NCBI GenBank assembly: GCA_902801365.1
Contig: CADCHY010000006.1
Span: 1-64,000 of the forward strand
DNA from: an uncultured Succiniclasticum sp.
Lineage (GTDB): Bacteria > Bacillota > Negativicutes > Acidaminococcales > Acidaminococcaceae
Direction of reading: 5' to 3'
Length of the DNA stretch: 64,000 nucleotides
How positions within the stretch are numbered: position 1 is the first letter of the stretch; every line of letters begins with the position of its first letter. Shown here piece after piece: positions 3,206 to 24,108 of the stretch. Position numbers and translations under genes: made by a program. The notes beneath the pieces are model-generated. The model saw nothing but the letters and a program-made list of their open reading frames with translations. It ran no database searches and was not told where the DNA came from.

Positions 3206-6200
3206 ATGAACAGAATCTACAAATTGATTTGGTCCAAAGTTAAAAACTGTTATGTTGTTACGTCTGAACTGGCGAAGAATCATGGGAAAAATTGTGCCCG
3301 CAGTAAAAAGAGCAATGTTCTAAAAAGTTCAGCAGTTCTTTCGTTAAGCATTGCTTTGGCACTTGGAGTTACCGGGCAAGCATTTGCAGAAGACCTAAAT
3401 GTTGATGGGAACCTGGCAGTTACCGGTGGGGCCACTGTTGGTGAAACCCTGGCAGTTACCGGTGGGGCCACTGTTGGTGAAACCCTGGCAGTTGGTGAGA
3501 GCCTGACAGTTACCGGTGACGCAACTGTTGGTGGGAACCTGGCAGTTACAGGAAACACGACAATTGCAAATCTGCAAGTGAGCAATGGTATTATAAATAT
3601 GGGAACATCACAGGGCGGATATCCTCACCAAATCGTAATCGATACGAACTCTAATATCGCATTAGGAGAGAGTTATAGTAGTAGTTATTTTTTCCAGGGT
3701 AATACCTCTAATGCCGTAGCAATAGGTAGCTTTGCTGTTATAAATAATACTACTGGTGGTGTCGCTATAGGAGATAGAGCTTCTGTATATAATGGAGGAA
3801 AAGTCGCTATTGGCAGAGGCGCTACTGCGAGGGGCAACAATTCGATTAATATTGGTGGAAATATTGGTGGCTGGGGTAGTGCGTACGGAGATTTTAAAGC
3901 AGACGGAGAAGATGATACTGTTATAGGAGGATCTGCCAGCGGGTATAATAACACCGCAATAGGCAGCGGAAGTAATGCAGGATATTGGTCAAATCAATAT
4001 GGAAGACCAAGCCAGGACAATACTGCCATAGGGTACAATGCAATTGCAGAAGGTGAAAGAGAAACGGCAGTTGGGTCACAAAGTCATGCCGGTGGCTGGA
4101 ACAGCACGGCTGTCGGCTATAAGGCAGAGACCGTAAGATCTGATTCTGTAGCAGTAGGCGCAAACAGCAAAACTAATGGAGATGCAAATATTGCGATCGG
4201 TCCTTATGCATCAACGTATAGCTACTCCAGTATTGCTGTTGGGCATGGAGCACAGGCAAATACGGATGATTCCATTTCGATGGGCCGCTCAGCAAAGGTT
4301 GAATATATTGAATCGGCGCAAACAGACGATACTCGAAGATTTGCCCAAAATGCAATAGCTATTGGTCAGTCCAGCATTGCAAGGGGATTAGATGCTACCG
4401 CGGTGGGAAGAAATTCCGTGGCAAACAGAAGAAATTCTACAGCATATGGAAATAACAGCCACGCGAATGGCTGGAACTCAATCGCGATTGGTAATAAAAG
4501 TATAGCGGGGCTGGAAAGCAATATAGAAAAAATTACTTATAACGAAGAAGGTAAGGCTATTGTCACAATAAAAGATGCTGAGTCCGGTCAGTCTGCCGTA
4601 GCAGTCGGAAACCGGGCCCGCGCAATCGAGGAATATTCTACTGCTGTCGGCGCAAGTACAAATGCAGAAGGCTGGCACAGCGTGGCCGTAGGCGATTCCA
4701 ACAGTGCTGTCGGCCGGTTCAGCACGGCCATGGGCGCAGGCTGGTCAAGATATACAGTAGATGAAGACGACAACGATAACACGGAAGCGCCAAGAAAATA
4801 TGAATCTATTGGTGCTAACCAGGCGACCGGTGATTACAGCACGGCAGTCGGATATGGGAACGCCACTACAGGCGATAACAGCACAGCATTGGGCATGCAG
4901 AACGCGGTGTCCGGCAATAATTCCATCGGTATCGGCACTAAAAATATCATCGGTTCCGTAACCAAACCCGGCGATACCAAAGAATTAACGGCAGATACCG
5001 ACAAGGGAAACGTTACTGGTTTTGCCTTTGGTAATGAGAATGAAATAACCGGCAATAATTCCATCGCAATCGGTGTCGGGAACAAAGTATCCGGTGAGAA
5101 CTCCGGTGCCTTTGGTGATCCGAACATTGTAAACGGAAACAATTCTTACGTTGTCGGTAATAACAGCAGGGTTGAAAAAGATGCCAACGAAGGCTTTATC
5201 ATGGGTAACAAGAGCAAGGTTTCCGGACAGGGCGGTATTATTGCCGGCAGCAACTCCGAGGTAACCGCTAAAGATTCCGTTGCCATTGGTAACCGTGCAA
5301 AAGCTACCATAGCAAACTCTGTAGCACTGGGCAGCGGATCCGAAACTACGCATATGGGTGGTTTGAACGGCAAGAAGGAAATTGAGATTCCCGGTACCAA
5401 TACGAAATATACAAACGTGACCGGTGAAAGCCCGGTAGGCACTGTCAGCGTTGGTAAGCCGGGCGAAGAACGCACGATCACCAACGTGGCAGCCGGCCGC
5501 GTTGGCCCTGGCAGCACCGACGCTATCAACGGTTCTGAATTGTATGCCGTGGAACAGCAGGTCGTTGCCAACTCGGCAGATATCGTTAACTTGAGCAACC
5601 GCATCGATAAGGTAGGTGCCGGCGCTGCGGCTCTGGCAGGCTTGCACCCGCTGGACTTTGACCCGGATGAAAAGTGGGATTTCGCTGCTTCCGTCGGCAG
5701 CTACAAGAGCGAGCAGGCTGTCGCCATCGGCGCGTTCTACCGTCCTAACGAAGACACCATGTTCAGTATTGCCGGTACAATCGGTGACGGGCGTAACATG
5801 GTCAACGTGGGTGTAAGCTGGAAGTTCGGTCAGAAGAACCGTATTTCCGCCAACCGCATTTCTTCCGCAAAAGAAATCATCGAGCTGCGCAAGAATCAGG
5901 AAAATGTACACTCCTTCCTGGCTGATGCCGTAGCAGGCAACCAGCTTGACTTGTCCAAGATTCAGCTGTTCCCGGATGTGGAGGAAAACCACTGGGCCTA
6001 TGACTATGTAGCCACCATGGCCGGCAACGGCGTACTGGAAGGCTATCCGGACGGTTACTTCAAGGGCAACCGCAACATGACCCGTTACGAAATGGCAGCG
6101 GTGCTGTATCGTCTGATGCAGAACGGCGCGCGCCTGAGCGACAAGGCTCTGACCGAGTTCGCACCGGAACTGGATCGCATCCGCGTCGATACGATTACCC

Positions 6201-6430
6201 ACCATAAGGATGGCACACCGCATATCCAGCGTGTTCGTACGATTAAGGAACGGGTAGAGGAAAAACCGGACCCGGCCTATAAAGAAGAAAAATTAGCACA
6301 AGAAAAGGCTGCTAAAGAAAAAATCGCAAAAGAAAAAGCGGAAGCCAAGGCTGCCAAAGAACAGCTGGCAAAAGAAAAAGCGGCAGCTAAGGCAGCTAAA
6401 GCAAAGGCAGCAGAAAAACCGGCCGAATAA
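3206..6430 (+). CDS. Trimeric autotransporter adhesin with YadA head, YadA anchor and C-terminal SLH domain
   Basis: 1074 residues. Residues 1-25 form an extended type V signal region (ESPR: MNRIYKLIWSKVKNCYVV), with signal cleavage after about A61. Next come short LAVTGGATVGET repeats (about 70-115), then many YadA-head repeats of the SxAIG..AxAxG type (about 150-720), and a neck/stalk with TNVAAGR and a DAINGSELYAVEQ motif. The YadA anchor (about 808-876) encodes the four outer-membrane strands. Unusually, an SLH domain follows the anchor (about 918-975: FPDVEENHWAYDYV, GYPDGYFKG, MTRYEMAAVLYRL), and then a Lys/Ala-rich tail (about 1020-1074). The part after the barrel should face the periplasm, so the SLH domain could bind the cell wall. 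First gene of the adhesin island; likely role is adhesion or aggregation. Confidence 0.93.
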   Translation: MNRIYKLIWSKVKNCYVVTSELAKNHGKNCARSKKSNVLKSSAVLSLSIALALGVTGQAFAEDLNVDGNLAVTGGATVGETLAVTGGATVGETLAVGESLTVTGDATVGGNLAVTGNTTIANLQVSNGIINMGTSQGGYPHQIVIDTNSNIALGESYSSSYFFQGNTSNAVAIGSFAVINNTTGGVAIGDRASVYNGGKVAIGRGATARGNNSINIGGNIGGWGSAYGDFKADGEDDTVIGGSASGYNNTAIGSGSNAGYWSNQYGRPSQDNTAIGYNAIAEGERETAVGSQSHAGGWNSTAVGYKAETVRSDSVAVGANSKTNGDANIAIGPYASTYSYSSIAVGHGAQANTDDSISMGRSAKVEYIESAQTDDTRRFAQNAIAIGQSSIARGLDATAVGRNSVANRRNSTAYGNNSHANGWNSIAIGNKSIAGLESNIEKITYNEEGKAIVTIKDAESGQSAVAVGNRARAIEEYSTAVGASTNAEGWHSVAVGDSNSAVGRFSTAMGAGWSRYTVDEDDNDNTEAPRKYESIGANQATGDYSTAVGYGNATTGDNSTALGMQNAVSGNNSIGIGTKNIIGSVTKPGDTKELTADTDKGNVTGFAFGNENEITGNNSIAIGVGNKVSGENSGAFGDPNIVNGNNSYVVGNNSRVEKDANEGFIMGNKSKVSGQGGIIAGSNSEVTAKDSVAIGNRAKATIANSVALGSGSETTHMGGLNGKKEIEIPGTNTKYTNVTGESPVGTVSVGKPGEERTITNVAAGRVGPGSTDAINGSELYAVEQQVVANSADIVNLSNRIDKVGAGAAALAGLHPLDFDPDEKWDFAASVGSYKSEQAVAIGAFYRPNEDTMFSIAGTIGDGRNMVNVGVSWKFGQKNRISANRISSAKEIIELRKNQENVHSFLADAVAGNQLDLSKIQLFPDVEENHWAYDYVATMAGNGVLEGYPDGYFKGNRNMTRYEMAAVLYRLMQNGARLSDKALTEFAPELDRIRVDTITHHKDGTPHIQRVRTIKERVEEKPDPAYKEEKLAQEKAAKEKIAKEKAEAKAAKEQLAKEKAAAKAAKAKAAEKPAE
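3413..3555 (+). repeat. 36-bp coding tandem repeat in the adhesin N-terminus
   Basis: Two perfect 36-bp copies (3413-3448, 3449-3484) encode LAVTGGATVGET and are followed by degenerate copies to about 3555. The unit length is a multiple of three, so copy-number change would alter length without shifting frame. Confidence 0.85.
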
Positions 6431-6515
6431 TAAGGGCATGCATGAGGACGGTTACATACAGGCATAGCACATTTTGCGATATGGATGATACTTGATAACA
6501 GGAGGGAGATCCATT

Positions 6516-7385
6516 ATGTTGGTTAAAAAGTTATTGGCTGTGGCAGCGCTGGGTTGTGCGTTACTTGCGTCGCAGGCGTTTGCATACGAAACAGGCGAAT
6601 ATTCCAAAGAAGCGTTGCGCCGGGGCGATGACAAACCGGTGGTGGTGAAGGACTACCCGGTAGTAGCGATAGAAGACGTTGTGGCGTCTCCGCAGTTATA
6701 TACGGAAAAGCTCATTGCGGTACAGGGCCCGATCCGGTACTTTGTGACAGGCAATATATATGAGATGCAGGCTGAGAACGGAACACGGTTGCGCGCCAAT
6801 TTCGGCAGGTACAGCCGCCGGCTGCTGTTCCGGACACCGTTTACCGCTATCGGAGTAATGCGGAAGGATGCGCAGGGGGATTATTTAAAAGTTGAAAAAG
6901 TGATCTGGCGTGATGTGAACCCCTACAAGGAATACTTTGACGCACAGAACAGGACCGGCCACACCTTGCCTGGGGAAGGGAACAAAAAAGTGGTAAACGA
7001 CCGTGACCCGGCTTTCTTCCACGATCCCATCGTCAGTGATAACAAACGTTTCCTGCAGAACAATCCGAAAGGATTGAGCTATGCAGACCTTGCATCCTAC
7101 CAGGCGATAGAAGGGAAAGCGTTTGCCGGTGGGAATCTGGAAGTGGGGACGAAGGTAGCCCTTATGGGCCGCAACATCGCCACGATCAAGGGGGACTGGA
7201 TGAAGTTCTGGGATAAGAACATGACACCGGTCACGCTGAAGATGAACAACACGTACTGCCCATTGGGTCAGCGTGGAACATTCTTCGGAACGGTGCAGGA
7301 AGAAAACGGCGTGAAGTATGTCTCCGTGGACTGCTTCGAGAGTATTGAAAACTGGCCGCAGCCGCCGATTGCCGGAGCAAACTGA
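6516..7385 (+). CDS. Exported protein of unknown function, OB-fold-like N-terminal part
   Basis: 289 residues from the ATG at 6516, chosen because GGAGGG (6501-6506) lies at proper distance; a TTG at 6492 is less likely. A Sec signal peptide ends in ASQAFA (about residue 23). Residues about 50-130 (VVASPQLYTEKLIAVQGPI... NGTRLRANFG... FTAIGVMRKD...YLKVEKV) alternate strands and glycines like a small beta-barrel of the OB type. A second similar block (VGTKVALMGRNIATIKGDW... GTFFGTVQEENGVKYVSVDCF) follows, suggesting two related domains. It sits 85 bases after one adhesin and ends in its own terminator, probably in the same transcript. A periplasmic role, perhaps helping adhesin assembly, is inference from position only. 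No catalytic motif was recognised. Confidence 0.75.
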   Translation: MLVKKLLAVAALGCALLASQAFAYETGEYSKEALRRGDDKPVVVKDYPVVAIEDVVASPQLYTEKLIAVQGPIRYFVTGNIYEMQAENGTRLRANFGRYSRRLLFRTPFTAIGVMRKDAQGDYLKVEKVIWRDVNPYKEYFDAQNRTGHTLPGEGNKKVVNDRDPAFFHDPIVSDNKRFLQNNPKGLSYADLASYQAIEGKAFAGGNLEVGTKVALMGRNIATIKGDWMKFWDKNMTPVTLKMNNTYCPLGQRGTFFGTVQEENGVKYVSVDCFESIENWPQPPIAGAN

Positions 7386-7577: not shown

Positions 7578-10037
7578 ATGTCTAAGAAGAATTTGTCAAA
7601 AGCAGTTGTGTTAAGTTTGTTGTTAGGAAGTGCATGCGGAGTTGCACAGGCGGAGAACATAGTCACTGCCCCCTCTGCATATCAGGGAGCCGGACCAGAC
7701 GGTAAATGGGATGGCGTAAACGTAACGTTAAGTGAAAAGAATTACTATTCTTCTGCAACAGCGGCGGGAGTCAGAAGCAACCGTCAGTTTATCGTCGATA
7801 ATAAAGACGGTAATGTTTTTGTTCTGGTTGATAATACTGATACCACAGTTACAAATAATGCGCTTTTCGTCCAAAATGATAAAGATACCGATAAATCAAC
7901 TGCAGATATAACTGCAAAGACGGTATTTTTCGGCTCGATTTACGCTACAAAGGCTGATGCGATTTCAGCTAAAAACGGAGGAACAGCAATTATCAATCCG
8001 ACCCCGGAGTCTGGTGGTTATACCAGAGTAATTGGTGATATCGACTTTGTTGAAAATGATCTGCATCATGACTGGGTATATTATAATAACAAGAAGAACA
8101 AGCCTGAACTGACTGCAGACGGGAACATTGAACTAACGTTAAACAATGACAAATCCTTTTGGTACGGTGACGAAGAAAATACATATCCGGAATTCAAAGA
8201 TGAAGATAAAACATTTGCAAGTTGGGATGAATTTGCTGAACAGTATCCCCAATATGCTGACTACCTAATTGAAAAAACAGTTTACGGTGGAAAAACTACT
8301 GAAGAAAGAATGAAAAAACTGGAAGATATAAAAATTTCCGGTCACGGGGATTTAAAGCTGACGGTGTCAAACGGAGCGGAATGGATTTATAAAATGAATC
8401 CGACCATCAGCAAAATTACGCTGGAAAAGGGCGGCATTATTAATATCCAGGATGAGGACATCAAGAGTAAGCTGGAAAATCTGACTATTGTAAACGAGTT
8501 TGATAAAAAGACAATAAAAATCGGTGAAGCAGAAACGAATAAATTTTTCGGGCGTCATGATTGTGTAGATGTCAGGGAATTATCCGGTGATGGCGGTATT
8601 TTCAAAGTAGATTTAAAATTTAATGATGAAAGCAAAAAGCCCATTTACAAGATTGCGGATGCCAATGAAAAACGGGACAGCGACTACATCTTCATCGGCA
8701 AAGGATCAGGCACCCATGACGTCCAGTTTAATTCCAAAGCTGCGAATTTGGAAAAGATGCAGCCCAATGCGGATCCCTCAAAAGAGGACAGGCTGTATTT
8801 TGCCAATGTTGCCGATGCAAACAGCAGTATCGTTCTTGACAGTACTACGGTAAAAGCTTTGTCTCAGGAAAAGATAGAAGACGGAGATAAGATTTTTGTT
8901 CATAGGTATGAAGTAAAGAGCGAAAAAGCGGAGACCGCTCCGGCTGACAGTACGGCTGCGAAAAAGTCGATGAAAAAAGCGCCTTCGACAACAACTGCTG
9001 GCGGCAGCGGCACGAACTGGTATATTCATAAGACTGAAGATGTAGAGGAAAAAGAAAAAGAAAAGGAAAAAAACGAATCAACGCCTCAAGTTGCGCCTGC
9101 TCCCAAGCCGGAACCGAAAACCTCCGAAGCCTTTAAGGTCATTGAAGATTTCCAATACGCAAACTACGCGTTGGGAACGGAGCTGGACCGTCTGAATAAA
9201 CGTATGGGCGAAGCGCGTTATACGGACGGGATGGACCATGGCGTGTGGGCGCGTATTAAGCGGACGCGTCAGGGCATCGATAACGCGTTTGAGAACAATT
9301 ACACCATGTACCAGGTCGGAAACACTGCCAGGATCCACGATAAAAATGACAAAGGCAAACATTATCGCGGGGTAGCTTTGGATTATATCAATGGCTCAAG
9401 CAACCTGACACGGGTAAACGGAACCGGCAACCACGAACGGGTGGCGGGCTCTGCCTTTGATACCTGGCTGGGAGATAAAGGGCACTACCGTGATATTGTA
9501 GTCAAGGTTGGCCGCATCAGAAGCAGCTATGATATAAACAATTCCCAGAATAAAGGGATGTCGGCAGATTACCATAATGTCTTTGGCAGCATCAGTTTTG
9601 AGTACGGCCGTAAGAAAGACATGAAGAAGGGCTGGTATATCGAACCGCAGAGCCAGCTGCAGATTGCGCATATCGGCAGTACCAGCTATCATACCAAAGA
9701 GGGCATTTACAACCGGCAGAATGGGATCACCAGCGTGATCGGCCGTGTCGGCTTCCGTCTGGGTTATGAAAATGCTGCCAAAACAAGAAACTATTACTTT
9801 AAAGCCGATTTAATGCATGAATTTGACGGCGATCGCGCCATTACAGCCATGGATAACTATGGGTATTCCCTGCGCAAAGAATACGACGGACAGCGCACCT
9901 GGGGAGATGTTGGCATTGGCGCCGATATCAGGACCGGCAAAGATACCTATTTCTGGCTTGACCTGGAGCGCTCCTTTGGCCATGACATCAGCCGTACCTG
10001 GCAGATTAACGGCGGCTTCAGCTGGCAGTGGAAGTAA
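7578..10037 (+). CDS. Classical (type Va) autotransporter, beta-barrel at C-terminus
   Basis: 819 residues. Ordinary Sec signal peptide (cleavage about A25, ending GVAQA), with no ESPR. The passenger (about 26-490) is Asp/Lys/Asn-rich, with no protease motif visible. A Lys/Glu then Pro-rich linker (about 490-520: EKEKEKEK, APAPKPEPK) leads to the translocation barrel (about 528-819). This begins YANYALGTELDRLNKRMGEARY and ends in alternating aromatic strands with a terminal WQWK, the expected aromatic outer-membrane insertion end. The barrel is closely similar to that of the next gene, so the pair looks like a duplication with diverged passengers. RBS GGGAGG at 7565-7570. Function of the passenger is unknown; surface display is likely. 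Confidence 0.88.
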   Translation: MSKKNLSKAVVLSLLLGSACGVAQAENIVTAPSAYQGAGPDGKWDGVNVTLSEKNYYSSATAAGVRSNRQFIVDNKDGNVFVLVDNTDTTVTNNALFVQNDKDTDKSTADITAKTVFFGSIYATKADAISAKNGGTAIINPTPESGGYTRVIGDIDFVENDLHHDWVYYNNKKNKPELTADGNIELTLNNDKSFWYGDEENTYPEFKDEDKTFASWDEFAEQYPQYADYLIEKTVYGGKTTEERMKKLEDIKISGHGDLKLTVSNGAEWIYKMNPTISKITLEKGGIINIQDEDIKSKLENLTIVNEFDKKTIKIGEAETNKFFGRHDCVDVRELSGDGGIFKVDLKFNDESKKPIYKIADANEKRDSDYIFIGKGSGTHDVQFNSKAANLEKMQPNADPSKEDRLYFANVADANSSIVLDSTTVKALSQEKIEDGDKIFVHRYEVKSEKAETAPADSTAAKKSMKKAPSTTTAGGSGTNWYIHKTEDVEEKEKEKEKNESTPQVAPAPKPEPKTSEAFKVIEDFQYANYALGTELDRLNKRMGEARYTDGMDHGVWARIKRTRQGIDNAFENNYTMYQVGNTARIHDKNDKGKHYRGVALDYINGSSNLTRVNGTGNHERVAGSAFDTWLGDKGHYRDIVVKVGRIRSSYDINNSQNKGMSADYHNVFGSISFEYGRKKDMKKGWYIEPQSQLQIAHIGSTSYHTKEGIYNRQNGITSVIGRVGFRLGYENAAKTRNYYFKADLMHEFDGDRAITAMDNYGYSLRKEYDGQRTWGDVGIGADIRTGKDTYFWLDLERSFGHDISRTWQINGGFSWQWK

Positions 10038-10134: not shown

Positions 10135-12825
10135 ATGAACAAAGTGTATCAAGTTGTATGGAGCAAGGCAAGAAACTGTTACGTAGTTGTATCTGAACTG
10201 GCAAAACGAAGCGGGAAGTGCAGTTCGGGCGGAAGTAAGAAGGTACTTGCGGCTGTTTTGGCTGCAGGGACAGTGCTGTCTGTGAGTGGAAACACATGGG
10301 CGGAAGAAGTGGATATGAGCAGTACATTTATTTCGGGTACGATTAATAATGCTGCTGCCGATTTAATATGTCATTGGACCAATATAGAGCAAGTAGGAAA
10401 AAAAACTCCAAATCCCGGAACCGCGCCTATAATGTATACTGCAAAACAGAAGAACACAAATATTTCAGTAAATAGCATTTCAGTTAAAAATCCTTTAAGG
10501 AATGCTAACAATGGAAAAGCAACATATGTAGAAAATAATGTGTCTATCAGGCTTCATGCTGGGACAATAACTATGGATTCATATGATGATGGATTATATA
10601 CTTCTGCAGGAAAATCACAAACAATTACTGTAGATGAAGTTAAAACGTTAACCATTGAATCGGAACATGGACATGCTATTACCAATAACGAAAACAGAGG
10701 TAAAACGGATGGCGCTGGAGATGCTGGGGAAGGTATTATAGTTACAGGCGTTAACGGGAGTAAGTTTAGTCTTATTAACAAAGATGGATACCGACCTGCT
10801 ATTGCTGGTAACAGTGTGACCAGTCCTATCAAAGTTTCTGCAGACAAAATCATAATAAAAGCGCCGGTAACAACGGATGATGATGAAAGTTCGAAAGATA
10901 AAGAAGCGAATGTTCTTCACAGTACGGTCATGACAGGAAGAAAAGGTTATGGCGGCACGGTGATTCTGGAAGGGAAGAATATCGAAATTACCAACGATAA
11001 ATTGGGAGATGGTATTGGCGGCGCTGTGGCTGCTGCCTCTGATAAAGGTGTCTTCGGTAAAAGTCTGATTGAGATCAATAAAGGCGGGACCGGTGTTGTT
11101 AATATCAAAGGCCATGTCGCTTCCTATTACGGTGGTACGGTAAACATTGATTTTGCCGGAGATAAATCTTCGCTGGAAGGGGACATTATTGCTACCAACG
11201 CATTCGTTAATACCAATTTTACCGGAAGCGGTTCAACATTTAAAGGCAAAGTCGTTACTACCTATGACAAAGGAACAGAGTTTGTTGAAGACAAGGCGTC
11301 GTCCAATTTAAAACTTGATCCCGGTACTACATGGACCATGACAGGTACTTCCAATGTAACCAATCTTGCGTTCAAAGATTCTGTCATCAAAATGGTCAGA
11401 AACAGTGAAACGCCCGAAAAAGGAATGAGCCTTACCATTGATAAGAGCTTCACTGGGAATAACGGTAAGTTCGTAATGAACCTGAAATACGGTGACGGAT
11501 CTAAAAAGCCGTTATATTCAGCCAGTGAGGTTACGGACAGCGATTACATCTTTGCCCTGAATTCCAGTGAAGGCACCTATGATATTGGTTATACCGACAT
11601 AACAAAAGCCAACCTGGATGCCATGAACAAAGGGGATAAACTGTATTTCTCCTATGTGGAGGGAAATAGTGCCCAATATACAAGTTCGGAAAGCGAGTCC
11701 TATGAGCGCGATAATCCCAGCGAAGTATATGTTTACAAGTATGTTGTTGAAAACGAAAAGTCAGATAACGGGAAAACCGGTAAAAACTGGTATATTACAC
11801 TGACCGAAGAAGAGAAGCCTGAACCGGAACCCGAGCCGGAGCCTAAACCTGAACCACAACCTGAGCCTAAACCACAACCAAAACCACAGCCTAAGCCCAG
11901 TTCCGCGGTGGAAATCATCAGCGATATGGGGTATTCCAATTACGCGTTAGGGGCAGATCTGGACCGGTTGAACAAACGGATGGGTGAAGCCCGCTATATT
12001 GACGAGACCCATGGCGCATGGGTGCGCTTGAAACGCGGCCGTCAGGGCATTGACAATGCGTTCAAGAACAATTACACCATGGTCCAGATCGGTATGGACG
12101 GCAAGGTGAAACCCCATCGGGATAAAGGAAAACATTACCGGGGCGTTGCGCTGGACTATACGGATGCCAACACGAGCCTGACCCGGTTCAGCGGGCATGG
12201 GGATGTACAACGGTATGCCGTGGAAGGGTACGACACCTGGCTGGGGCATAAAGGACATTACCGGGATATCGTGGCCCGGTTCGGCCGCATTGAAAGTGAT
12301 TACACTGCACTGGGCCGGACAGGTAAGGAAGTTTCTGCCGAGTACGGTAATAACTTTGGCAGCCTGAGTATTGAGTATGGCCGGAAGAAAGACATGGGGA
12401 ACGAATGGTATTTTGAACCCCAGGCCCAGCTGCAGGTAGCCCGTGTGGGCAGTGCCAGTTATACAACGAAGCAGGGACTGTGGAACCGGCAGGATGCCAT
12501 AACCAGTATTATTGCCAGAGGAGGTTTCCGGATTGGCCGGGATGTTCTGACAGATAAGGATAAACTGCGTCGCAGCTACTATTTTAAGGCTGATATCATG
12601 CACGAATTTGACGGAGACCGTTCTATGATCGCCCGTAGTGCGGATGGATTGGATACACTGCGTACAGACTATGATGGGAAACGGACTTGGGCCGATATCG
12701 GTATAGGCGCTGATATCGAAGTAAACAAACATTCTTACTTCTTCCTGGATCTGGAACGCGACTTCGGTCACGACATTAGCCGGACCTGGCAGATCAACGG
12801 TGGCTTCCGTTGGGAATGGAAATAA
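10135..12825 (+). CDS. Classical autotransporter with ESPR-type extended signal peptide
   Basis: 896 residues. It starts with the same ESPR as the trimeric adhesins (MNKVYQVVWSKARNCYVVVS), with cleavage near A56. The passenger (about 57-560) is Ser/Thr/Asn/Gly-rich with repetitive strands (NITNDKLGDG, KGHVASYYGGT) consistent with a beta-solenoid; no enzyme motif was seen. A striking Pro-Glu/Pro-Lys linker (about 563-590) leads to the barrel (about 600-896), starting YSNYALGADLDRLNKRMGEARY and ending FRWEWK. It lies 97 bases after the related 7578 gene with no terminator between, so they may be cotranscribed. RBS AGGAGGGG at 10121-10128. Probably a surface adhesin; ligand unknown. Confidence 0.88.
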   Translation: MNKVYQVVWSKARNCYVVVSELAKRSGKCSSGGSKKVLAAVLAAGTVLSVSGNTWAEEVDMSSTFISGTINNAAADLICHWTNIEQVGKKTPNPGTAPIMYTAKQKNTNISVNSISVKNPLRNANNGKATYVENNVSIRLHAGTITMDSYDDGLYTSAGKSQTITVDEVKTLTIESEHGHAITNNENRGKTDGAGDAGEGIIVTGVNGSKFSLINKDGYRPAIAGNSVTSPIKVSADKIIIKAPVTTDDDESSKDKEANVLHSTVMTGRKGYGGTVILEGKNIEITNDKLGDGIGGAVAAASDKGVFGKSLIEINKGGTGVVNIKGHVASYYGGTVNIDFAGDKSSLEGDIIATNAFVNTNFTGSGSTFKGKVVTTYDKGTEFVEDKASSNLKLDPGTTWTMTGTSNVTNLAFKDSVIKMVRNSETPEKGMSLTIDKSFTGNNGKFVMNLKYGDGSKKPLYSASEVTDSDYIFALNSSEGTYDIGYTDITKANLDAMNKGDKLYFSYVEGNSAQYTSSESESYERDNPSEVYVYKYVVENEKSDNGKTGKNWYITLTEEEKPEPEPEPEPKPEPQPEPKPQPKPQPKPSSAVEIISDMGYSNYALGADLDRLNKRMGEARYIDETHGAWVRLKRGRQGIDNAFKNNYTMVQIGMDGKVKPHRDKGKHYRGVALDYTDANTSLTRFSGHGDVQRYAVEGYDTWLGHKGHYRDIVARFGRIESDYTALGRTGKEVSAEYGNNFGSLSIEYGRKKDMGNEWYFEPQAQLQVARVGSASYTTKQGLWNRQDAITSIIARGGFRIGRDVLTDKDKLRRSYYFKADIMHEFDGDRSMIARSADGLDTLRTDYDGKRTWADIGIGADIEVNKHSYFFLDLERDFGHDISRTWQINGGFRWEWK

Positions 12826-14029: not shown

Positions 14030-17000
14030 ATGAACAAAATTTTTAAGGTTGTCTGGAGCAAAACGAAAAACAGTTATGTCGTTGTGTCTGAGATTGCCAA
14101 ACGCAATGGCAAGTGCAGTTCGAGTTTAAATAAAAAACTGATCGCCGCGTTTCTGATTGCAGGGACTGTGTTGTCTGCAGGCGGCAGTGCGTGGGCGGCT
14201 TCCTATTCGGCAGGAGGGGCGACTGCAAACGGCAGAGAGTCTGTAGCAGTTGGAGCAGGTTCAGAAATCAACGGGAGTCTCTTACAAGGGGCGACAGCTT
14301 CTATTTATGGTCCATACAATATAATAGATTCAAAAACCGGTGTTATGTACGATGGGGTTGCAAACAGCGTTGTTGGCGTGGGAAATTTAACAAATAACGC
14401 AAATGGCGCTTTAATCTGGGGTGCAGGAAACACTATAGAGAATGCATATGGAGATGTTAGTAAGTCTACTGAATTACAAGCTGCAGTTAGAGCGTATATG
14501 CAAAGCCAAACAGAGGACAACTTAAAAAAAGCTATTGATGCCCTGTCGAGCGCTGTTGCTGGCAGTGGTGGCAATGTTATGGCGGTTGGTGGAGCGAATA
14601 CTGCGGGATCCGAAGGAAATGTTTCTTACTCGCAGCTTATGGGTGTATCTAATAAATTGCAATCGGGCAACTTCAATTTCTTGGATGGCTATAATAATAC
14701 TGTGAAGGGCGATAATAATATTGCAATTGGTTCCGATATTATTATAACAGCAAACGAAGCTGTAGTAATTGGCAAAGAAGGTAAAGTCGAGAGCAATAAT
14801 GGAGACGGTAGTTTTGTGCTTGGTAATAACGCTTCGGCAACGTCTGCAAAATCAGTAGCATTGGGCAGCGACTCTGTAGCGGATCGAGAGGCAGGAGGGG
14901 AAGTTGGTTACGATGTAATGGAAGAATCAGCTTATTCTGGCACTGATAAAACTTCTCCAACATGGACTTCCACGCTGGGAGCGGTATCGGTCGGCGTAGC
15001 AAAGGATGCTGCCGGAAAGCAGCAAACCCGTCAGATTATTAACGTTGCAGCAGGTTCTAAACCTACCGATGCTGTCAACGTAGCGCAATTGCAATTGGTT
15101 GCATCGGCTGTTGAAGACGCAAAAGTGCATTATTTCAGTGTAAATGACGGAGGAAGTCCTAAAAACAACTATGACAACGATGGTGCAAGCGAAACCTATG
15201 CTATTGCAATTGGTCCCGATGCCAGCGCAAGCGGTTCTTCCAGCATTGCTATTGGTTACGGCGCGCAGGCTACGGGCGATGGCGCGATTGCGATTGGCGA
15301 GGGCTCAACCGGACAGCTGATTGCCAGTGGAAGCAATTCCTATGTTCACGGTTTTTCCGCTCAGGCGGCGGGACCGGACGCGACAGCATGGGGCATTCTG
15401 ACAGTGGCGGGGCAGGACGAGGCCGACCGGAATGCTACCTGGGAGATGCTGAACCAAATGGATCACGCAGGGGAACCCGGTGAAAAAGATGAGTTCGGCA
15501 TAGGAGCCACGGCGTGGGGACAATATAATAAGGCATATGGTACAGATGCCACTGCCTTTGGCGAGGGAAATATTGCGTATGGCATTCATTCGACTGCCTT
15601 TGGTACTGAAAATACAACGTATGGACGTGCTTCGACTGCTTGGGGTGAATTCAATGAAGCAAGCGGATACGATTCAACAGTCTTTGGCCAAAGTAACGTA
15701 GCCTCTAATGCCCAGGCGACGGCATTTGGGGTCGGCACGACAGCCAGCGGTGAAGCATCGACTGCGTTTGGTGTTTCAACAACTGCCAGTGGATTTATGG
15801 CGGCAACTGCATTTGGTTACGGGACAACAGCCGAAGGTTCGGCATCAACTGCGTTTGGAATGATCTCAACCGCAAGCGGGATGGCATCTACGGCGTTTGG
15901 CGCGTATACAAATGCGACCAAAGATTATGCGACGGCATGGGGCTATGGTACAAATGCTACCAACAACTATGCAACAGCATGGGGTGCATCCAACACAGCC
16001 AGCGGCCAGGCGGCTACTGCTTTCGGTAATGGAACTAAAGCGTCAGGAAATATGGCGACTGCCTTTGGATCTGGCTCACAAGCAACCGCTTTGAACGCAA
16101 CGGCGTTTGGCGTAAAAAATACAGCCAACGCCCAGGCTGCAACAGCTTTCGGTAATTTGACAACCGCATCCGGGCTGATGTCCACTTCCTTCGGTCAGTA
16201 TACGGAAGCTAGTGGCAAAGGAGCGACCGCTTTTGGTCTCGGTACTGCCGACGAAAAAGTAACAGCTTCCGGTGAAGGCGCTACTGCTTTCGGTAGCAAG
16301 ACCGTAGCTGCCGGTAACTACGCTACTGCCTTCGGTGTGAATTCCAAAGCCTATGGAGAAAACTCGCTGGCAGCTTTAGGCGGTACTGTTGGCAAAACGG
16401 CGAATGGGGAAGGTAAAGGATCTGTGGCCATTGGCGATGGCGCAGAGGTCCTTGTAGACTATGCGTATGCTATTGGTCAGAACGCGAAAGCTTTGGAAGA
16501 GAATACGATTGCCATTGGCAACAATACAGAAGCAACTGGTGCCGGTGCCGTCGTATTTGGTAATGAATCCAAAGTGTCCGGTGAGAACAGCATTGCCATC
16601 GGTAAAGGCCATACGGTAAGCGGGAATAATTCCGGTGCCTTCGGTGATCCGGACACTGTTGACGGAGATTATTCTTACGTTGTAGGTAATAACAGCACTG
16701 TTGACAGCGATGCAAACGAAAGCTTTATCATGGGTAACCAGAGTACAACTTCTGCTAAGAGAGGCCTAATTTTTGGTAATGAAAGCAAGGTCTCCGGCGA
16801 GGGCGGTATTGTTGCCGGCAGTAAATCTGAGGTGTCAGCCAAAGATTCTGTTGCCATCGGCAACAATGCCAAGGCTACCATGGAAAATTCGGTAGCGCTG
16901 GGTAGCGGTTCTGAAACCACACATATGGGCGGCCTTGACGGAAAGAAGGAAATAGAGATTCCGGGCACCAACACAAAATATACGAACATTAAAGGTGAGA

Positions 17001-17899
17001 GCCCCGTGGGAACTGTCAGTGTGGGTAAGCCTGGCGAAGAACGTACAATTACCAACGTGGCAGCCGGCCGCATCGGTCCTGACAGTACAGATGCTGTCAA
17101 TGGTTCCGAACTGTACGCGGTTGAACAGAAAGTAGCTGCAAATTCGGCAGATATTATCAATTTAAGCAACCGTGTTGATAAAGTCGGTGCAGGCGCAGCA
17201 GCGTTGGCAGCCTTGCACCCCATGGACTTTAACCCGGACGACAAGCTGCAGTTCTCGGCCGGCGTAGGTAACTACCGCGGTGAAACGGCGGCAGCCGTCG
17301 GTGCGTTCTATCGGCCAGACGAAAGTGTCATGTTTAGTATCAGTGGAACATTCGGCAACAGCGATAACATGGTAAACGCAGGCATCACCTTCGGTCTGGA
17401 CGGCACCCGGAACCGGATAACCCGGAGCCGCACGGCCATGGCCCGCGAGATCCAGGATCTGCGCAGCCTGGTGACCCAGATGGCGGCCCGGATGGACCGT
17501 CTGGAAGGTGCTAATACGGAGACGGCCATGTTCCCGGATGTACCGGAAAATCACTGGGCTTACGAGTATGTGGAAGACCTGCAGAAACGCGGCGCGCTGA
17601 AGGGATATCCGGATGGTCTGTTCAAGGGTGACCGTTCTATGACACGTTATGAATTTGCGGCGATGTTGGACCGCCTGGTCCGCAGCGGCGTAACGCTGGA
17701 TTCCAAGATTGCCAAAGAGTTCGAGCCGGAACTGGGTCGTATTTATGTAGAACGGATCTCCGGTCAAGACAATGACCGCAAGAAAGTGGAACGGGTACGT
17801 GTCAACAATTCGGATTCGAAGTATCCGGAAGGGAAGACCCGTGACGTCTACGGCAGCAAGATTGTGACGGAGATTCCGAAGGCAGCGGAAGTGAAGTAA
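14030..17899 (+). CDS. Trimeric autotransporter adhesin with aromatic YadA-type head repeats and C-terminal SLH domain
   Basis: 1289 residues. ESPR (MNKIFKVVWSKTKNSYVVVS), cleavage near A56. Regular YadA-head repeats (about 60-440) are followed by a long block (about 445-780) of 14-15-residue repeats in which the usual AIG core is replaced by TAFG or TAWG. Standard repeats then return, with SGAFGDPDTV and VVGNNS segments. The neck/stalk has GKPGEERTITNVAAGR and STDAVNGSELYAVEQ. The YadA anchor (about 1055-1125) is followed by a short coiled coil (about 1135-1165) and an SLH domain (about 1166-1220: FPDVPENHWAYEYVEDL, GYPDGLFKG, MTRYEFAAMLDRL). The stalk-to-anchor part is nearly the same protein as in the 3206 adhesin but with many synonymous differences. 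RBS AAGGGAG. An adhesion role is expected; ligand unknown. Confidence 0.92.
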   Translation: MNKIFKVVWSKTKNSYVVVSEIAKRNGKCSSSLNKKLIAAFLIAGTVLSAGGSAWAASYSAGGATANGRESVAVGAGSEINGSLLQGATASIYGPYNIIDSKTGVMYDGVANSVVGVGNLTNNANGALIWGAGNTIENAYGDVSKSTELQAAVRAYMQSQTEDNLKKAIDALSSAVAGSGGNVMAVGGANTAGSEGNVSYSQLMGVSNKLQSGNFNFLDGYNNTVKGDNNIAIGSDIIITANEAVVIGKEGKVESNNGDGSFVLGNNASATSAKSVALGSDSVADREAGGEVGYDVMEESAYSGTDKTSPTWTSTLGAVSVGVAKDAAGKQQTRQIINVAAGSKPTDAVNVAQLQLVASAVEDAKVHYFSVNDGGSPKNNYDNDGASETYAIAIGPDASASGSSSIAIGYGAQATGDGAIAIGEGSTGQLIASGSNSYVHGFSAQAAGPDATAWGILTVAGQDEADRNATWEMLNQMDHAGEPGEKDEFGIGATAWGQYNKAYGTDATAFGEGNIAYGIHSTAFGTENTTYGRASTAWGEFNEASGYDSTVFGQSNVASNAQATAFGVGTTASGEASTAFGVSTTASGFMAATAFGYGTTAEGSASTAFGMISTASGMASTAFGAYTNATKDYATAWGYGTNATNNYATAWGASNTASGQAATAFGNGTKASGNMATAFGSGSQATALNATAFGVKNTANAQAATAFGNLTTASGLMSTSFGQYTEASGKGATAFGLGTADEKVTASGEGATAFGSKTVAAGNYATAFGVNSKAYGENSLAALGGTVGKTANGEGKGSVAIGDGAEVLVDYAYAIGQNAKALEENTIAIGNNTEATGAGAVVFGNESKVSGENSIAIGKGHTVSGNNSGAFGDPDTVDGDYSYVVGNNSTVDSDANESFIMGNQSTTSAKRGLIFGNESKVSGEGGIVAGSKSEVSAKDSVAIGNNAKATMENSVALGSGSETTHMGGLDGKKEIEIPGTNTKYTNIKGESPVGTVSVGKPGEERTITNVAAGRIGPDSTDAVNGSELYAVEQKVAANSADIINLSNRVDKVGAGAAALAALHPMDFNPDDKLQFSAGVGNYRGETAAAVGAFYRPDESVMFSISGTFGNSDNMVNAGITFGLDGTRNRITRSRTAMAREIQDLRSLVTQMAARMDRLEGANTETAMFPDVPENHWAYEYVEDLQKRGALKGYPDGLFKGDRSMTRYEFAAMLDRLVRSGVTLDSKIAKEFEPELGRIYVERISGQDNDRKKVERVRVNNSDSKYPEGKTRDVYGSKIVTEIPKAAEVK

Positions 17900-19116: not shown

Positions 19117-22100
19117 ATGGCTCTGGGTTTCCATTCGGTCGCTGCTCATTCGGAAAGTATTGCTGTAGGGCATGATTCAGTGACTTTTGGTGATAGTTCG
19201 CTGGCGATAGGTCATTTAGCTTTAACTGGCATGCCAGTCATAGAAGGGTATAGTGATAAAGCTGGTATCAAATACGTTGAGGTCCCAAACGGAAGCAAAA
19301 TCAGTTCTCAGCCAAAAAGTACATCAAAGCTATATATTCAGACATCTGATGGAACCGTACTATTATACGAATGTACGATTGACGCTGAAGAGAAAGGTAA
19401 ATATTATAAGGTAAAAGCTAAAGAAACTTATGATGCACAAGGAAAAGTTAATGGATGGAAATTTGTAAAAGTTGATAAATTTGGGGACGATGCTGAAAGT
19501 GATGACGATGCTGTCCAGTATAGAGCGGTAGAGAATACAAATAAAGATATCAGACCGTCAGGCGATGCGGTAAGTCATATTGACTATTTTGTACAGATTG
19601 AAAAAGACAATAATGGTACGTTTAAAGATGTCGCAGGTACAAAAACAAATACACTTGACGGTGGTATTGCTATCGGTTCCTATACGATTGCTCAGGGAGA
19701 ACATTCCATGGCATTGGGTCTTACCTCTGCCGCGTATGGGAAGAACAGCGTTGCCCAGGGTCTGTACGCTAATGCATATGGCGAAGGAGCCATTTCTTTC
19801 GGACATGAAGCGTTATCAGGCGCGCATGTTAAGATTGAACCTGGCAGAAAAAAGATAGAGGATGTCTATACAATCAATTTTTCAGTATCAAAAGGGGGAG
19901 AATCAGAACGGACTCTGTTAGACGGCAGCATAGCTAAAGTTAACAAGAACAGTATCTATCTCATTGAAGACGGAAACATAGAAGTAAACGCTAACGGAAA
20001 AATTCTCAAAGTTGGTGACGCAGATTTTGGTTACGATGCGGACAAAATAAAATTAAAAAAATCCGGTGATTCAGTAAAAAGAGATGCTGATACAGGATAT
20101 TATTATTATCAAAAGAATGGAAAAAATGTAATGGTCAGCCCGGATGAGATACTGACTTTTACTGGCACTGATGGTCAGACGGTTGATATTGCGGCTGGTA
20201 AGATGACCTTGTCATCCGGTGGCATCTCCTTCGGTTCCTATTCTCATGCTGAAGGAGACAAGGCGATGGCAATCGGCCGTGTGGCAGGCGCCTACGGAAG
20301 AAACAGCACGGCCGTTGGCCAGTTCGCTAATTCCTTAGGCGAAGATTCCATGGCAATAGGTCATAATGCTTCGGCAGGTGCGAAAGTGGATATGAGCACA
20401 TTGGACGAAGAGCATCATTCTGCCACCATAAAATTGACAGACGGGATGCCTGAAACCAGCGGCGGTAAAGCCGGCATTGCGATAGGTTCTTATTCCCATG
20501 CGGCCGGCGACAAAGCTGTAGCTATTGGCAGGGGAAACATCGTAACCGGGGATAACAGTATCGCGATTGGTACCGGTCATAAGGTGAGAGGTAATAATTC
20601 CGGTGCATTTGGTGATCCGAACGTTGTAAATGCGCACAATTCTTATATTGTTGGTAATGAGAGTACGATTGACGGGTCAAATACGGCTGAAGAGATTACT
20701 GTCACGGACGCTTTTGTTATGGGTAACAGCAGTAGTGTTGATAAAACCGGAGGGATTGTTTTTGGTTCCGGTTCTTCTGTGACAGCAGAGAATGGCCTTG
20801 CGCTGGGAAATAATGCTGCTGTATCCGTTGCAGGCGGTGTGGCGCTGGGAAATGAAAGTGTGGCAACCAGGGAGCTGAGCGAAGGTGGATATAACCCGGC
20901 AACGAGAGAAGAAAAGTATACAGATGGGACGGGAGTATGGGAATCTTCAGCGGCAGCGGTATCCGTTGGCGGAACGGTTACAACGGTAGACGATGAAGGG
21001 AATGCAACAACGAAAACAGTTACCCGTCAGATTACCAACGTAGCTGCAGGATCAGAACTTTCTGACGCGGTGAACGTTGCCCAGCTGAAAGCAGCGAGCG
21101 TGGAACTGGAGAAAGGCGCGAATATAACACTGGGAACGAAACACGACCCGGATGACGGTCATATGATTTATACGATCAATGCAGCGGGTAGCGGGGATGC
21201 AATTCATTTCTACTCTGTCAATTCTTCAGACGAGACAGCAGGAAACTATGACAATAAAGGGGCAAAGGGTAGCAATGCTCTGGCAGCAGGCGTAAATGCG
21301 AAGGCTAGTGGTGATAATTCTGTTGCTGTCGGCAACGATGCAAACGCAAAAGCAGATAATTCTATTGCCATTGGCAATGGGGCAAAAGCGAAAGAAGATG
21401 ACGCAATAGCCATCGGTAGCGGTGCGACGGCAAAGGGTGTCGGATCTATTGCCCTGGGACGTCACGGTGCTAAAGCTATCGGTTGGGACGCCATGGCCTG
21501 GGGTGTAGACACAAAAGCCAAAGGCGACGAATCAACTGCCTGGGGTTCATTAACGAAGGCCAAAGGAGACGGAAGCACCGCCTTCGGTTTTGAAACCGTA
21601 GCAAAGGGAGATTATTCCACCGCCTGGGGTGAACAGACAAAAGCAACAGGAGAAGTTGCCACTGCCTGGGGCAGCAATGCGACGGCGAAAGGGGATTCTT
21701 CTACCGCGTGGGGTGATGAAACAATAGCTGCTGGGACAAATGCCACCGCCTGGGGCGTACAGACAAAGGCAAAAGGCTTCTCATCCACGGCGTTCGGTTA
21801 TTATACAAAAGCCAAAGGAGAAATGGCGACGGCCTGGGGGAGTTATACGAATGCGGCAGGAAACTCTTCGACGGCGTTCGGCGAAAGAAGCACGGCTTAT
21901 GGTGGTAATTCTCTGGCGGCGCTCGGAGGCACAACCGGGTCGGATGCTGAAGACGGAAATGCGGTAAGCTCCGTTGCTTTGGGCAAAAACGCAGTTGCGT
22001 TTAAAGACCATACCTATGCCATCGGTCAGGATGCAGAAGCAAGGGGAGATAATACGATTGCGCTGGGAAACAGCGTAGTTGCTGAAGGGAAGAATGCGGT

Positions 22101-24108
22101 TGCCATCGGTTCGGGGAAAATCACCCGGCAGATCGGAACTCTGATAGAAACCGATTCTCACGGAGAGACAACGTATTCCTTTACGGATGGCTCCGGTAAT
22201 TCAAGGACAATTGAAGAAGATGAAGACGGACGTCATTATTATGTAAATGACAGTGGAACAAAGATTTATCTGGAAAGAAATGATGTCCTGAGTATGACTG
22301 ATAACAGGGATGATGACGAGGCGGAAGATCTGATTACCACGACTAAATACCTCATAACGGAAGCTGAAAATCCTGCGCAGGCAAGCGGCGATAATTCTAT
22401 TGCGGTGGGAATGTCCGCAAATGCGTCCGGGAATGACGGTATTGCTATCGGAACCGGATCTGGTGCCGGGGAAGATGGCGCAATCGCCTTTGGCAACAAC
22501 GCCTCTGCAACTAAGGCAAACAGCGTGGCGTTGGGCTCCGGTTCCTCTATGACAGAAATTGGCGGTATGAAGGAGCTGGCAATCAACGGGAAAACATATA
22601 AATTTGCAGGGACACCCAGTGAAGATAACGGGACAGTGAGCATTGGTTCTGCAGGCAAAGAACGTACGATTCTCAATGTGGCTCCGGGCCGGATTTCTGA
22701 CGCCAGCACTGACGCCATCAACGGCAGCCAGTTGTATGCAGCTATTGATGCAATGCAGTTCGATATTGTGGCCGGAGACAACGTTGAGGTGATTAAAGAA
22801 ACTAGCAACGGACATACCAAGTATACGATTCATTCGCTAAATGCGATTGTTCAGGCTGTTCCGGACAATACTGTTACGGTTGATGATGAGGTCGGAACAG
22901 GAGCGACAAATGGTAAAACGACTGACTTGACTCCAGATAGTACCGGCTCGGCTGCAGGCAACGGAACGGGTGCAGGAACAACCGGCGGCAGTACAACTGC
23001 AACAACGCCGGAACCGACACCTTCCCAGGAATCGATTGGGCCGTTGGCTCCGAATGAAACGAAACCCAATAACCATACGACAACGTACACTGTGGATGCA
23101 GCTGATTCCAAGGTGTCCGGTGTCGAGGTAAAATCAGGCGAATCAAAAACAACAGCCAATAAAACGGAAACCGAGTATACCGTCACTGTAACGTCCAATG
23201 AACAGAGTGTTGAGGATAACGTAATCAAAACAACAGTAGTTCCCAAAACTGCAAAATTCACTGTTACGGATACCCGCAACAGGGTTGTCGCCGGAGACAA
23301 TATTACAGTCACAGCAAGCGGTGACGATGAAAAGGGTCCTGTTACTTATACCATCAGCGCCAAAGCTGCCACTAATGTTAAAGTAATTGACGGGGATAAC
23401 ACCACGGTGACCGAAGGCAAAGACGGTGACTTCACAACGTATGCGGTTAATGTAGTAACCGACGGCAAAGTAGCTTCCGGCGACAGCGGCATTGTAACCG
23501 GCGGCACCGTTTACAAGGAAACCCGTGTGGAGAAAGACGGCAACTACATTAAGAAAGACAACACGGCCGCGGAAAACATTACAGCGCTGGATGAAAAGGT
23601 TAAAGATAATGCGACGAGTATCGAAAATCTGAATAACGAGTTCAACAACACGTTCAATCAGATGAACCGTCTGGACGACCGTATGCGGAAAGGCCTGGCA
23701 GGCGCGGCCGCGTTGGCAGCCCTGCACCCCATGGACTTTGATCCGGATGATAAGCTGCAGTTCTCGGCCGGCGTGGGTAATTACCGCAGTGAAACGGCAG
23801 CGGCTATCGGTGCCTTCTACCGTCCGAATGAAAAAGTGATGTTCAGTATCGGCGGAACTTTTGGCAACAGTGATAACCTGATTAATGCCGGTATTACCTT
23901 CGGGCTGGACGGCAACCGGAACCGGATTCCCCGGAGCCGCAACGCTATGGCTCATGAAATTGTGGAGCTGAAACAACAGGTTGCAAAACAAGACGAACAG
24001 ATTGCTAAACAAAATGAACAAATCGCCAAACAGGATGAACAGATTGCCAAACTGACTGAACTGGTGAACAAACTGGCCGGGACAGAACAAAAGGCTGAAA
24101 CCCGGTGA
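19117..24108 (+). CDS. Trimeric autotransporter adhesin, main 3' part of the frameshifted gene
   Basis: 1663 residues from the first ATG of this frame, but the frame is meaningful back to 18849 and belongs to the gene starting at 18131 (restored length 1988). It contains many YadA-head repeats interrupted by non-repeat insertions. A block of TAWG/TAFG aromatic repeats lies at about residues 788-945 of this frame. Further repeats, a Thr/Pro/Gly-rich region (about 1250-1320), stalk domains with VVAGDNITVTASG-type motifs and a coiled coil (about 1490-1525) follow. The YadA anchor spans about 1528-1600. After the anchor it has a heptad coiled coil made of AKQDEQI/AKQNEQI repeats instead of an SLH domain. 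Without the upstream signal peptide this part would not be exported, so the gene is off unless the duplication is resolved. Followed by two terminators. Confidence 0.88.
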   Translation: MALGFHSVAAHSESIAVGHDSVTFGDSSLAIGHLALTGMPVIEGYSDKAGIKYVEVPNGSKISSQPKSTSKLYIQTSDGTVLLYECTIDAEEKGKYYKVKAKETYDAQGKVNGWKFVKVDKFGDDAESDDDAVQYRAVENTNKDIRPSGDAVSHIDYFVQIEKDNNGTFKDVAGTKTNTLDGGIAIGSYTIAQGEHSMALGLTSAAYGKNSVAQGLYANAYGEGAISFGHEALSGAHVKIEPGRKKIEDVYTINFSVSKGGESERTLLDGSIAKVNKNSIYLIEDGNIEVNANGKILKVGDADFGYDADKIKLKKSGDSVKRDADTGYYYYQKNGKNVMVSPDEILTFTGTDGQTVDIAAGKMTLSSGGISFGSYSHAEGDKAMAIGRVAGAYGRNSTAVGQFANSLGEDSMAIGHNASAGAKVDMSTLDEEHHSATIKLTDGMPETSGGKAGIAIGSYSHAAGDKAVAIGRGNIVTGDNSIAIGTGHKVRGNNSGAFGDPNVVNAHNSYIVGNESTIDGSNTAEEITVTDAFVMGNSSSVDKTGGIVFGSGSSVTAENGLALGNNAAVSVAGGVALGNESVATRELSEGGYNPATREEKYTDGTGVWESSAAAVSVGGTVTTVDDEGNATTKTVTRQITNVAAGSELSDAVNVAQLKAASVELEKGANITLGTKHDPDDGHMIYTINAAGSGDAIHFYSVNSSDETAGNYDNKGAKGSNALAAGVNAKASGDNSVAVGNDANAKADNSIAIGNGAKAKEDDAIAIGSGATAKGVGSIALGRHGAKAIGWDAMAWGVDTKAKGDESTAWGSLTKAKGDGSTAFGFETVAKGDYSTAWGEQTKATGEVATAWGSNATAKGDSSTAWGDETIAAGTNATAWGVQTKAKGFSSTAFGYYTKAKGEMATAWGSYTNAAGNSSTAFGERSTAYGGNSLAALGGTTGSDAEDGNAVSSVALGKNAVAFKDHTYAIGQDAEARGDNTIALGNSVVAEGKNAVAIGSGKITRQIGTLIETDSHGETTYSFTDGSGNSRTIEEDEDGRHYYVNDSGTKIYLERNDVLSMTDNRDDDEAEDLITTTKYLITEAENPAQASGDNSIAVGMSANASGNDGIAIGTGSGAGEDGAIAFGNNASATKANSVALGSGSSMTEIGGMKELAINGKTYKFAGTPSEDNGTVSIGSAGKERTILNVAPGRISDASTDAINGSQLYAAIDAMQFDIVAGDNVEVIKETSNGHTKYTIHSLNAIVQAVPDNTVTVDDEVGTGATNGKTTDLTPDSTGSAAGNGTGAGTTGGSTTATTPEPTPSQESIGPLAPNETKPNNHTTTYTVDAADSKVSGVEVKSGESKTTANKTETEYTVTVTSNEQSVEDNVIKTTVVPKTAKFTVTDTRNRVVAGDNITVTASGDDEKGPVTYTISAKAATNVKVIDGDNTTVTEGKDGDFTTYAVNVVTDGKVASGDSGIVTGGTVYKETRVEKDGNYIKKDNTAAENITALDEKVKDNATSIENLNNEFNNTFNQMNRLDDRMRKGLAGAAALAALHPMDFDPDDKLQFSAGVGNYRSETAAAIGAFYRPNEKVMFSIGGTFGNSDNLINAGITFGLDGNRNRIPRSRNAMAHEIVELKQQVAKQDEQIAKQNEQIAKQDEQIAKLTELVNKLAGTEQKAETR

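Follow-up and report, generated by a model that had tools for sequence, protein, structure and literature searches.

Two trimeric autotransporter adhesins, P0001 and P0002, are encoded in a 64,000-nucleotide stretch of DNA from an uncultured Succiniclasticum sp. (the window; contig C6 of a 53-contig genome of 2.05 Mb and 93% completeness). Both proteins continue past their YadA anchor into a coil and a single SLH domain, and the most likely reading, with a probability of roughly 0.7, is that this tail ties the adhesin to the cell wall. This layout and its periplasmic, wall-binding interpretation are already published for Veillonella, and P0001 and P0002 are further members. A sequence-only reading of the window had proposed that both chains run past the anchor into a coil and an SLH, and Pfam matches above the cut-offs bear this out. 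Over 5620-6430 it had picked out anchor, coil and SLH correctly, but had overlooked a conserved end piece at 6143-6244 and a partner gene downstream.

Domain order and predicted topology

The features of type Vc secretion are present: an extended signal peptide, YadA head repeats, a stalk and a YadA anchor. For P0001, Pfam reports ESPR at residues 1-49 (E 2.9e-16), YadA_head, YadA_stalk at 757-799, YadA_anchor at 819-874 (E 9.9e-10) and SLH at 922-964 (E 1.6e-12); for P0002, the anchor covers residues 1068-1121 and the SLH residues 1168-1210 (E 1.4e-10). The anchor and SLH matches of both proteins all exceed the Pfam curated cut-offs and are thus not due to chance, and whole-genome searches place them at the same spots. 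A single SLH lies directly behind the YadA anchor in the same chain, rather than the three tandem SLH repeats per chain of the classical S-layer arrangement. The features are as follows.

3206..6430, + strand: P0001, trimeric autotransporter adhesin with SLH tail, 1074 residues (Pfam)
5660..5827, + strand: YadA anchor of P0001, four predicted strands (Pfam, model; Foldseek matches Hia 2gr8 and YadA 2lme)
5849..5935, + strand: helix between anchor and SLH of P0001, probable trimeric coiled coil (model helix 77-105)
5969..6097, + strand: SLH of P0001, OmpM-type by sequence (Pfam, profiles)
6143..6244, + strand: conserved end piece behind the SLH of P0001, EFxPEL helix and predicted beta-hairpin (model, alignment, profile)
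about 6257..6427, + strand: Lys/Ala/Glu-rich C-terminal extension of P0001, long predicted helix (model H218-264)
14030..17899, + strand: P0002, second trimeric autotransporter adhesin with SLH tail, 1289 residues (Pfam)
17231..17392, + strand: YadA anchor of P0002 (Pfam, whole-genome search)
17444..17506, + strand: helix between anchor and SLH of P0002 (model, H2-22)
17531..17659, + strand: SLH of P0002 (Pfam, structure match)
17705..17806, + strand: conserved end piece behind the SLH of P0002 (alignment, profile, model)
19117..24108, + strand: P0003, third adhesin of the same island and comparison case, anchor then coil without SLH (Pfam and translation)

In the structural model of the P0001 tail, strands 19-28, 31-43, 46-55 and 60-67 are followed by helix 77-105, the SLH helices and a hairpin (187-194/200-207). 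A second run, made with the same set of relatives, predicts a helix, the SLH and a hairpin (101-107/116-121) for the P0002 tail. Four predicted strands per chain is an even number, so the C-terminal part would be periplasmic if the topology of the YadA and Hia anchors holds; the earlier placement of the region behind the barrel in the periplasm is supported to that extent.

Relatives were represented by 79 loci fetched with ENHWAY[DE] and a second seed peptide (best 80 of 225; L044, whose frame stops soon after the match, was left out), and a profile, A3, was built from 80 anchor-SLH tails. The nearest named relatives of the anchor-SLH query are an Acidaminococcaceae metagenome-assembled genome from goat duodenum (100%) and Succiniclasticum ruminis DSM 9236. 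Across the 80 tails the linker from anchor to SLH measures 42-54 residues (commonest 46), and in 12 near-complete genomes the spacing is 130-185 nucleotides in 43/43 cases. Coil periodicity is weak, with a peak of 3.4 at the edge of the tested range that 71 of 2000 shuffles reach. Among the fetched relatives, the Lys/Ala/Glu-rich extension was seen by eye in the nearest ones only. A further motif, RDVYGSxI and variants, occurs near the C-terminus of P0002-like tails (about 17807-17896 in the window, and in relatives).

An SLH of OmpM type and a conserved end piece

In the trimeric outer membrane protein OmpM, Y36 (in HWAY) and Y65 (in TRYE) are described as possible polyamine contacts, which Negativicutes OmpM conserves better than other SLHs do (PMC10628300). 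HWxY, TRYE and EFxxEL occur in 79/80, 80/80 and 80/80 adhesin tails and in 34/35, 34/35 and 35/35 OmpM sequences, but in 0/5 tandem SLHs each. The adhesin HWxY count is biased by the seed peptide, the TRYE and tail counts less so, and the OmpM set consists of the best SLH matches chosen by pattern, with L106 and L133 left out.

Profile and structure comparisons point the same way. On the V. parvula OmpM structure 8bz2, the A3 match extends past the SLH, through RLADEFSNELNNLGVRV (E 1.9e-22, positions 108-185), but in the two best matches to Sap it stops at position 166, where the SLH ends. The adhesin profile scores a median of 94.6 bits on OmpM, with a median end position of 73/78, against 37.9 bits on tandem SLHs, where it ends at 55. 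For the P0002 tail model, 8bz2 heads the Foldseek list and is the only good match (Z 7.0, root-mean-square deviation 2.7, 76 residues). The earlier comparison with the SLH of OmpM is supported by motifs, profiles and structure match: judged by sequence, the SLH of P0001 and P0002 is of OmpM type, with signature tyrosines and a post-SLH helix that are common to OmpM and absent from tandem SLHs. In a tree of 120 SLH rows, OmpM forms one side of a branch (SH-aLRT 94), and the approximately unbiased test is compatible with a single origin for the SLHs of the adhesins (p 0.734); descent of the adhesin module from OmpM is not demonstrable by this tree, as its 82 columns are too few.

OmpM and the adhesins thus share the SLH type, the HWxY and TRYE tyrosines, the post-SLH helix and one SLH per chain, but differ in the order of their parts. 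From N- to C-terminus OmpM reads SLH, coil and porin barrel, while the adhesins read passenger, anchor, coil, SLH and hairpin, with the SLH C-terminal, the YadA anchor as barrel and no porin. The coil accordingly follows the SLH in OmpM and precedes it in the adhesins. In tandem SLHs successive motifs run into one another, end to start; the two ends of a motif should therefore lie close together, and either order of coil and SLH would be workable. The reach also appears similar, since in OmpM the stretch between the end of TRYE and the barrel junction runs from residue 66 to R113 (numbers as read from PMC10628300).

The end piece behind the SLH follows the consensus EFxPELxRxRVDxIxxxxxGxPxIERVR. 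F180, E183, R204 and R206 are invariant in the 80 tails, both ERVR arginines being present in 80/80, and E179 to R206 spans exactly 28 residues in 65/80. A profile of the end piece only (A6) matched 12 of 60 genomes. Among the SLH matches listed in frames of at least 629 residues, the end piece lies behind 13 of 14 adhesin SLHs; the single exception is a 629-residue anchor-SLH adhesin (L133, G043:C1:2493500-2497500) that ends at EFKPEMEQVAANERA, after EFKPEM, without the hairpin. OmpM-size frames gave one weak A6 match only (G006:C230, E 0.007), and the further matches are a contig-end fragment (G006:C110), a partial match in a 1018-residue frame (G055:C8) and a match of 12 residues (G055:C3). 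The end piece may cap the SLH trimer or dock another protein, these being the favoured options. Neither the end piece nor the partner gene was found described in the literature searched, which did not cover supplements or the preprint of Dorison et al. 2026.

Probable tethering to the wall and competing explanations

In the mechanism that we favour, P0001 and P0002 are type Vc adhesins whose chain would continue through the outer membrane into the periplasm, where a linker of ~45 residues per chain, mostly coil, would span from the barrel towards the wall. Each chain would contribute one SLH unit, and the three units of a trimer would form a three-part head like that of OmpM. This head would bind modified peptidoglycan, tying the adhesin to the wall, and the end piece, with its EFxPEL helix and beta-hairpin, would close the chain. 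Full-length trimeric OmpM binds the polyaminated wall (V. parvula sacculi) through its SLH stalk, and its three chains are described as bringing their single SLHs together (PMC10628300), so one SLH per trimeric-adhesin chain fits this design. Tandem SLH proteins form a pseudo-three-fold unit (PMC4786415).

The suspicion that the combination might not be new was well founded. Poppleton et al. 2017 reported three V. parvula adhesins with an SLH behind the anchor and proposed that it is periplasmic and binds peptidoglycan as in OmpM, describing it as restricted to Negativicutes (PMC5491611). According to Bechon et al. 2020, every V. parvula trimeric autotransporter has a coil or SLH past the anchor; wall attachment is suggested there, and its effect on function is given as unknown (PMC7549365). 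The Veillonella proteins Vpar_0041, Vpar_0100 and Vpar_1664, and VtaG, VtaH and VtaI, share the order of YadA anchor then SLH. P0001 and P0002 differ in coming from a rumen Succiniclasticum-like genome, and P0001 has a partner gene, which is lacking at L025, a fetched locus that overlaps the VtaH position of SKV38. In AtaA-TpgA of Acinetobacter a trimeric adhesin is likewise tied to the wall from the periplasm, but the wall-binding part is a separate protein there and fused here. Simulated partner binding doubles the extraction force in that system (PMC13082670), so the earlier remark that the mechanical role is little studied does not hold for a periplasmic partner. Inverse autotransporters of the YeeJ/intimin type also combine an adhesin with a wall-binding domain, with a different secretion route and a LysM domain (PMC5595812), and trimeric autotransporters of Streptobacillus carry a putative wall-binding domain past the YadA anchor that is an OmpA family domain instead of an SLH (PMC7549365). 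Holding long surface fibres in a membrane that has no fixation to the wall of its own poses a mechanical problem, and a fused OmpM-type wall head would make it testable by one deletion in the tractable V. parvula.

Several observations weigh against the favoured mechanism. An isolated OmpM SLH construct failed to bind sacculi (PMC10628300), so SLH sequence alone is no proof of binding. The structural models are monomers of modest confidence (predicted local distance difference test 68.5 and 65.6, predicted template modelling score 0.33 and 0.52 for P0001 and P0002). With a post-SLH-only OmpM profile, in windows chosen by the EFxxEL pattern, the adhesin tails score weakly (median 5.55 bits, best shuffle 5.4), and about half of them fail to beat the best shuffle. 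The genome, whose SLHs are of OmpM type, also has a match to a CsaB-type pyruvyl transferase (G000 contig C5, 17343-18284; TIGR03609, 311.6 bits), so a pyruvylated polymer could serve as wall ligand instead of the polyaminated peptidoglycan that OmpM binds. Finally, of the 102 anchors in the 12 near-complete genomes, 43 have an SLH 130-185 nucleotides behind them and 59 have no SLH match behind them, which makes the SLH link dispensable for adhesins as a class.

The suggested survey of anchor-SLH proteins across Negativicutes was made with A3, which matches 299 of 300 genomes, mostly via OmpM or the anchor alone as judged from E-values. Counted at a best E of <=1e-60, a threshold set after the table was seen and with a tally by eye, a clear anchor-SLH protein is found in 81/300 genomes (27/59 in family f1, 17/17 in f7, 20/28 in f28, 4/4 in f31, 10/12 in f35 and 3 genomes in f15), and 8 further genomes have a best E between 1e-34 and 1e-60. 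One anchor-SLH locus (L050) lies in a metagenome-assembled genome labelled Phoenicibacter congonensis and is probably a misbinned Negativicutes contig.

The SLH was expected on the longest fibres, and this expectation was rejected. Among frames of at least 300 residues (8 of the 102 are shorter and were left out), adhesins with SLH (n=41, median 1616) and without (n=53, median 1669) do not differ in length (p 0.87), and the SLH adhesins of two Veillonella genomes (g54: G060, G092) belong to the shorter adhesins there. A purely mechanical purpose, with load on long fibres as the reason for the SLH, is therefore not supported.

The competitor that survives best, although we regard it as rather unlikely, is that the coil and SLH behind the anchor chiefly help assembly, with periplasmic trimerization aiding barrel folding and passenger secretion and wall binding being secondary. 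Sister adhesins have coil-only extensions at the same place: from their translations, three further adhesins of the genome (P0003 at 19117 in the window, and proteins on contigs C13 and C28) end in coil without an SLH. The 59 anchors that lack an SLH fit this explanation as well, and the title of the Dorison et al. 2026 preprint refers to phylogenetically restricted adaptations of a secretion mechanism. Against it, the OmpM-type tyrosines, conserved in 79/80 and 80/80 tails, would be superfluous in an assembly aid. Ranked below it, and more doubtful, is the proposal that the tail serves the envelope, with many adhesin trimers supplementing OmpM in tethering the outer membrane. In its favour, adhesins and OmpM share one SLH type, and SLH adhesins are not longer than others, as expected without fibre load. 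However, most envelopes manage without a clear anchor-SLH protein, and the outer membrane of V. parvula comes off when three OmpM genes are deleted, despite the presence of SLH adhesins (PMC10628300, PMC7549365). Both are real rivals of wall tethering of the adhesin, and they may be partly true together.

That the SLH is a functionless relic of domain fusion might be suggested by its presence in only some paralogues, but this is very improbable given the retained key residues, the occurrence in six GTDB-type families, the constant spacing and the invariant end-piece arginines. Least credible of all is a surface-exposed SLH end that docks on an S-layer or neighbouring cells, as the even number of anchor strands would put the C-terminus in the periplasm and the sequence is OmpM-type.

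The downstream partner gene and the adhesin island

An exported protein is encoded beside the adhesin, as in systems of the AtaA-TpgA and SadA-SadB kind, for P0001 only:

6516..7385, + strand: exported partner protein, 289 residues, possibly OB-fold (oligonucleotide/oligosaccharide-binding fold), with a ribosome-binding-like AGGAGGGAG upstream (homology, pairing)

By eye, the product has a signal peptide and no lipobox. Between P0001 and the partner gene there is no terminator-like site and, by consensus scan, one promoter-like match at 6492-6520. By tblastn the partner is found in 14 of the 79 fetched loci, always 21-143 bp past the adhesin stop. It accompanies a tail subtype, G[TS]PxIQRxR[VT]I, being present in 14 of the 15 loci with this tail and in 0 of the 63 others, although the loci are not independent; L025 (V. 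parvula) is the only subtype locus without it. A partner profile gave 24 matches in 16 of the 300 genomes. All 15 full-length copies, with matches at E <=1e-60, lie 27-263 bp behind an anchor-SLH match (families f1, f7, f28, f31 and f35), and a match at a contig end (G177:C248) also adjoins an adhesin. The listed frames around G223:C20 (E 1.6e-38) include no adhesin, two weak matches each in G232 and G244 have no adhesin alongside, and G177:C151 and two G292 matches are short fragments. The pairing persists even though partner identity drops to 24-26% within its family, which argues that adhesin and partner share a function.

A possible fold of the partner is hinted at by sub-threshold matches in its family. 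The 6516-7385 product itself has no Pfam or NCBIfam match. NF033674, a model of YgiW-type OB-fold stress proteins, matches 3 of 13 partner members below threshold (best 6.2e-4), and PF04076 (BOF) matches 2 of 13 below a convincing level (best 0.021). A PF04076 search of the Succiniclasticum genome itself gave no match, and a profile search of the PDB returned nothing below E 0.3. Comparison of the two halves of the partner with hhalign (Prob 21, P 0.001) is suggestive of a repeat at most.

In the P0001 subtype, the exported protein encoded just downstream probably works with the periplasmic tail, possibly through direct contact. A tentative extension has the P0001-like adhesins as one of the two components of a machine for wall anchoring; the hairpin would dock a dedicated exported OB-fold-like partner, which in turn would control or strengthen the hold of the trimer on peptidoglycan. 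The end-piece hairpin and the partner gene add two defined parts to the known layout.

The genome has six YadA anchors by whole-genome profile search, the sixth of which (contig C20) sits in a 116-residue frame near a contig end. Its six SLH matches are all single-copy: two belong to P0001 and P0002, and four to OmpM-like proteins whose translations contain an OmpM-like barrel region. The left end of the window forms an adhesin island with P0001, the small exported protein, two type Va autotransporters, P0002 and the third trimeric adhesin. Pfam identifies the two classical type Va autotransporters, between P0001 and P0002, at 7578-10037 and 10135-12825. Two frames, 18131-18934 and 19117-24108, make up the third trimeric adhesin, which may be a pseudogene, a case of phase variation or an assembly error. 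The break between the frames is near 18830, next to a short direct repeat.

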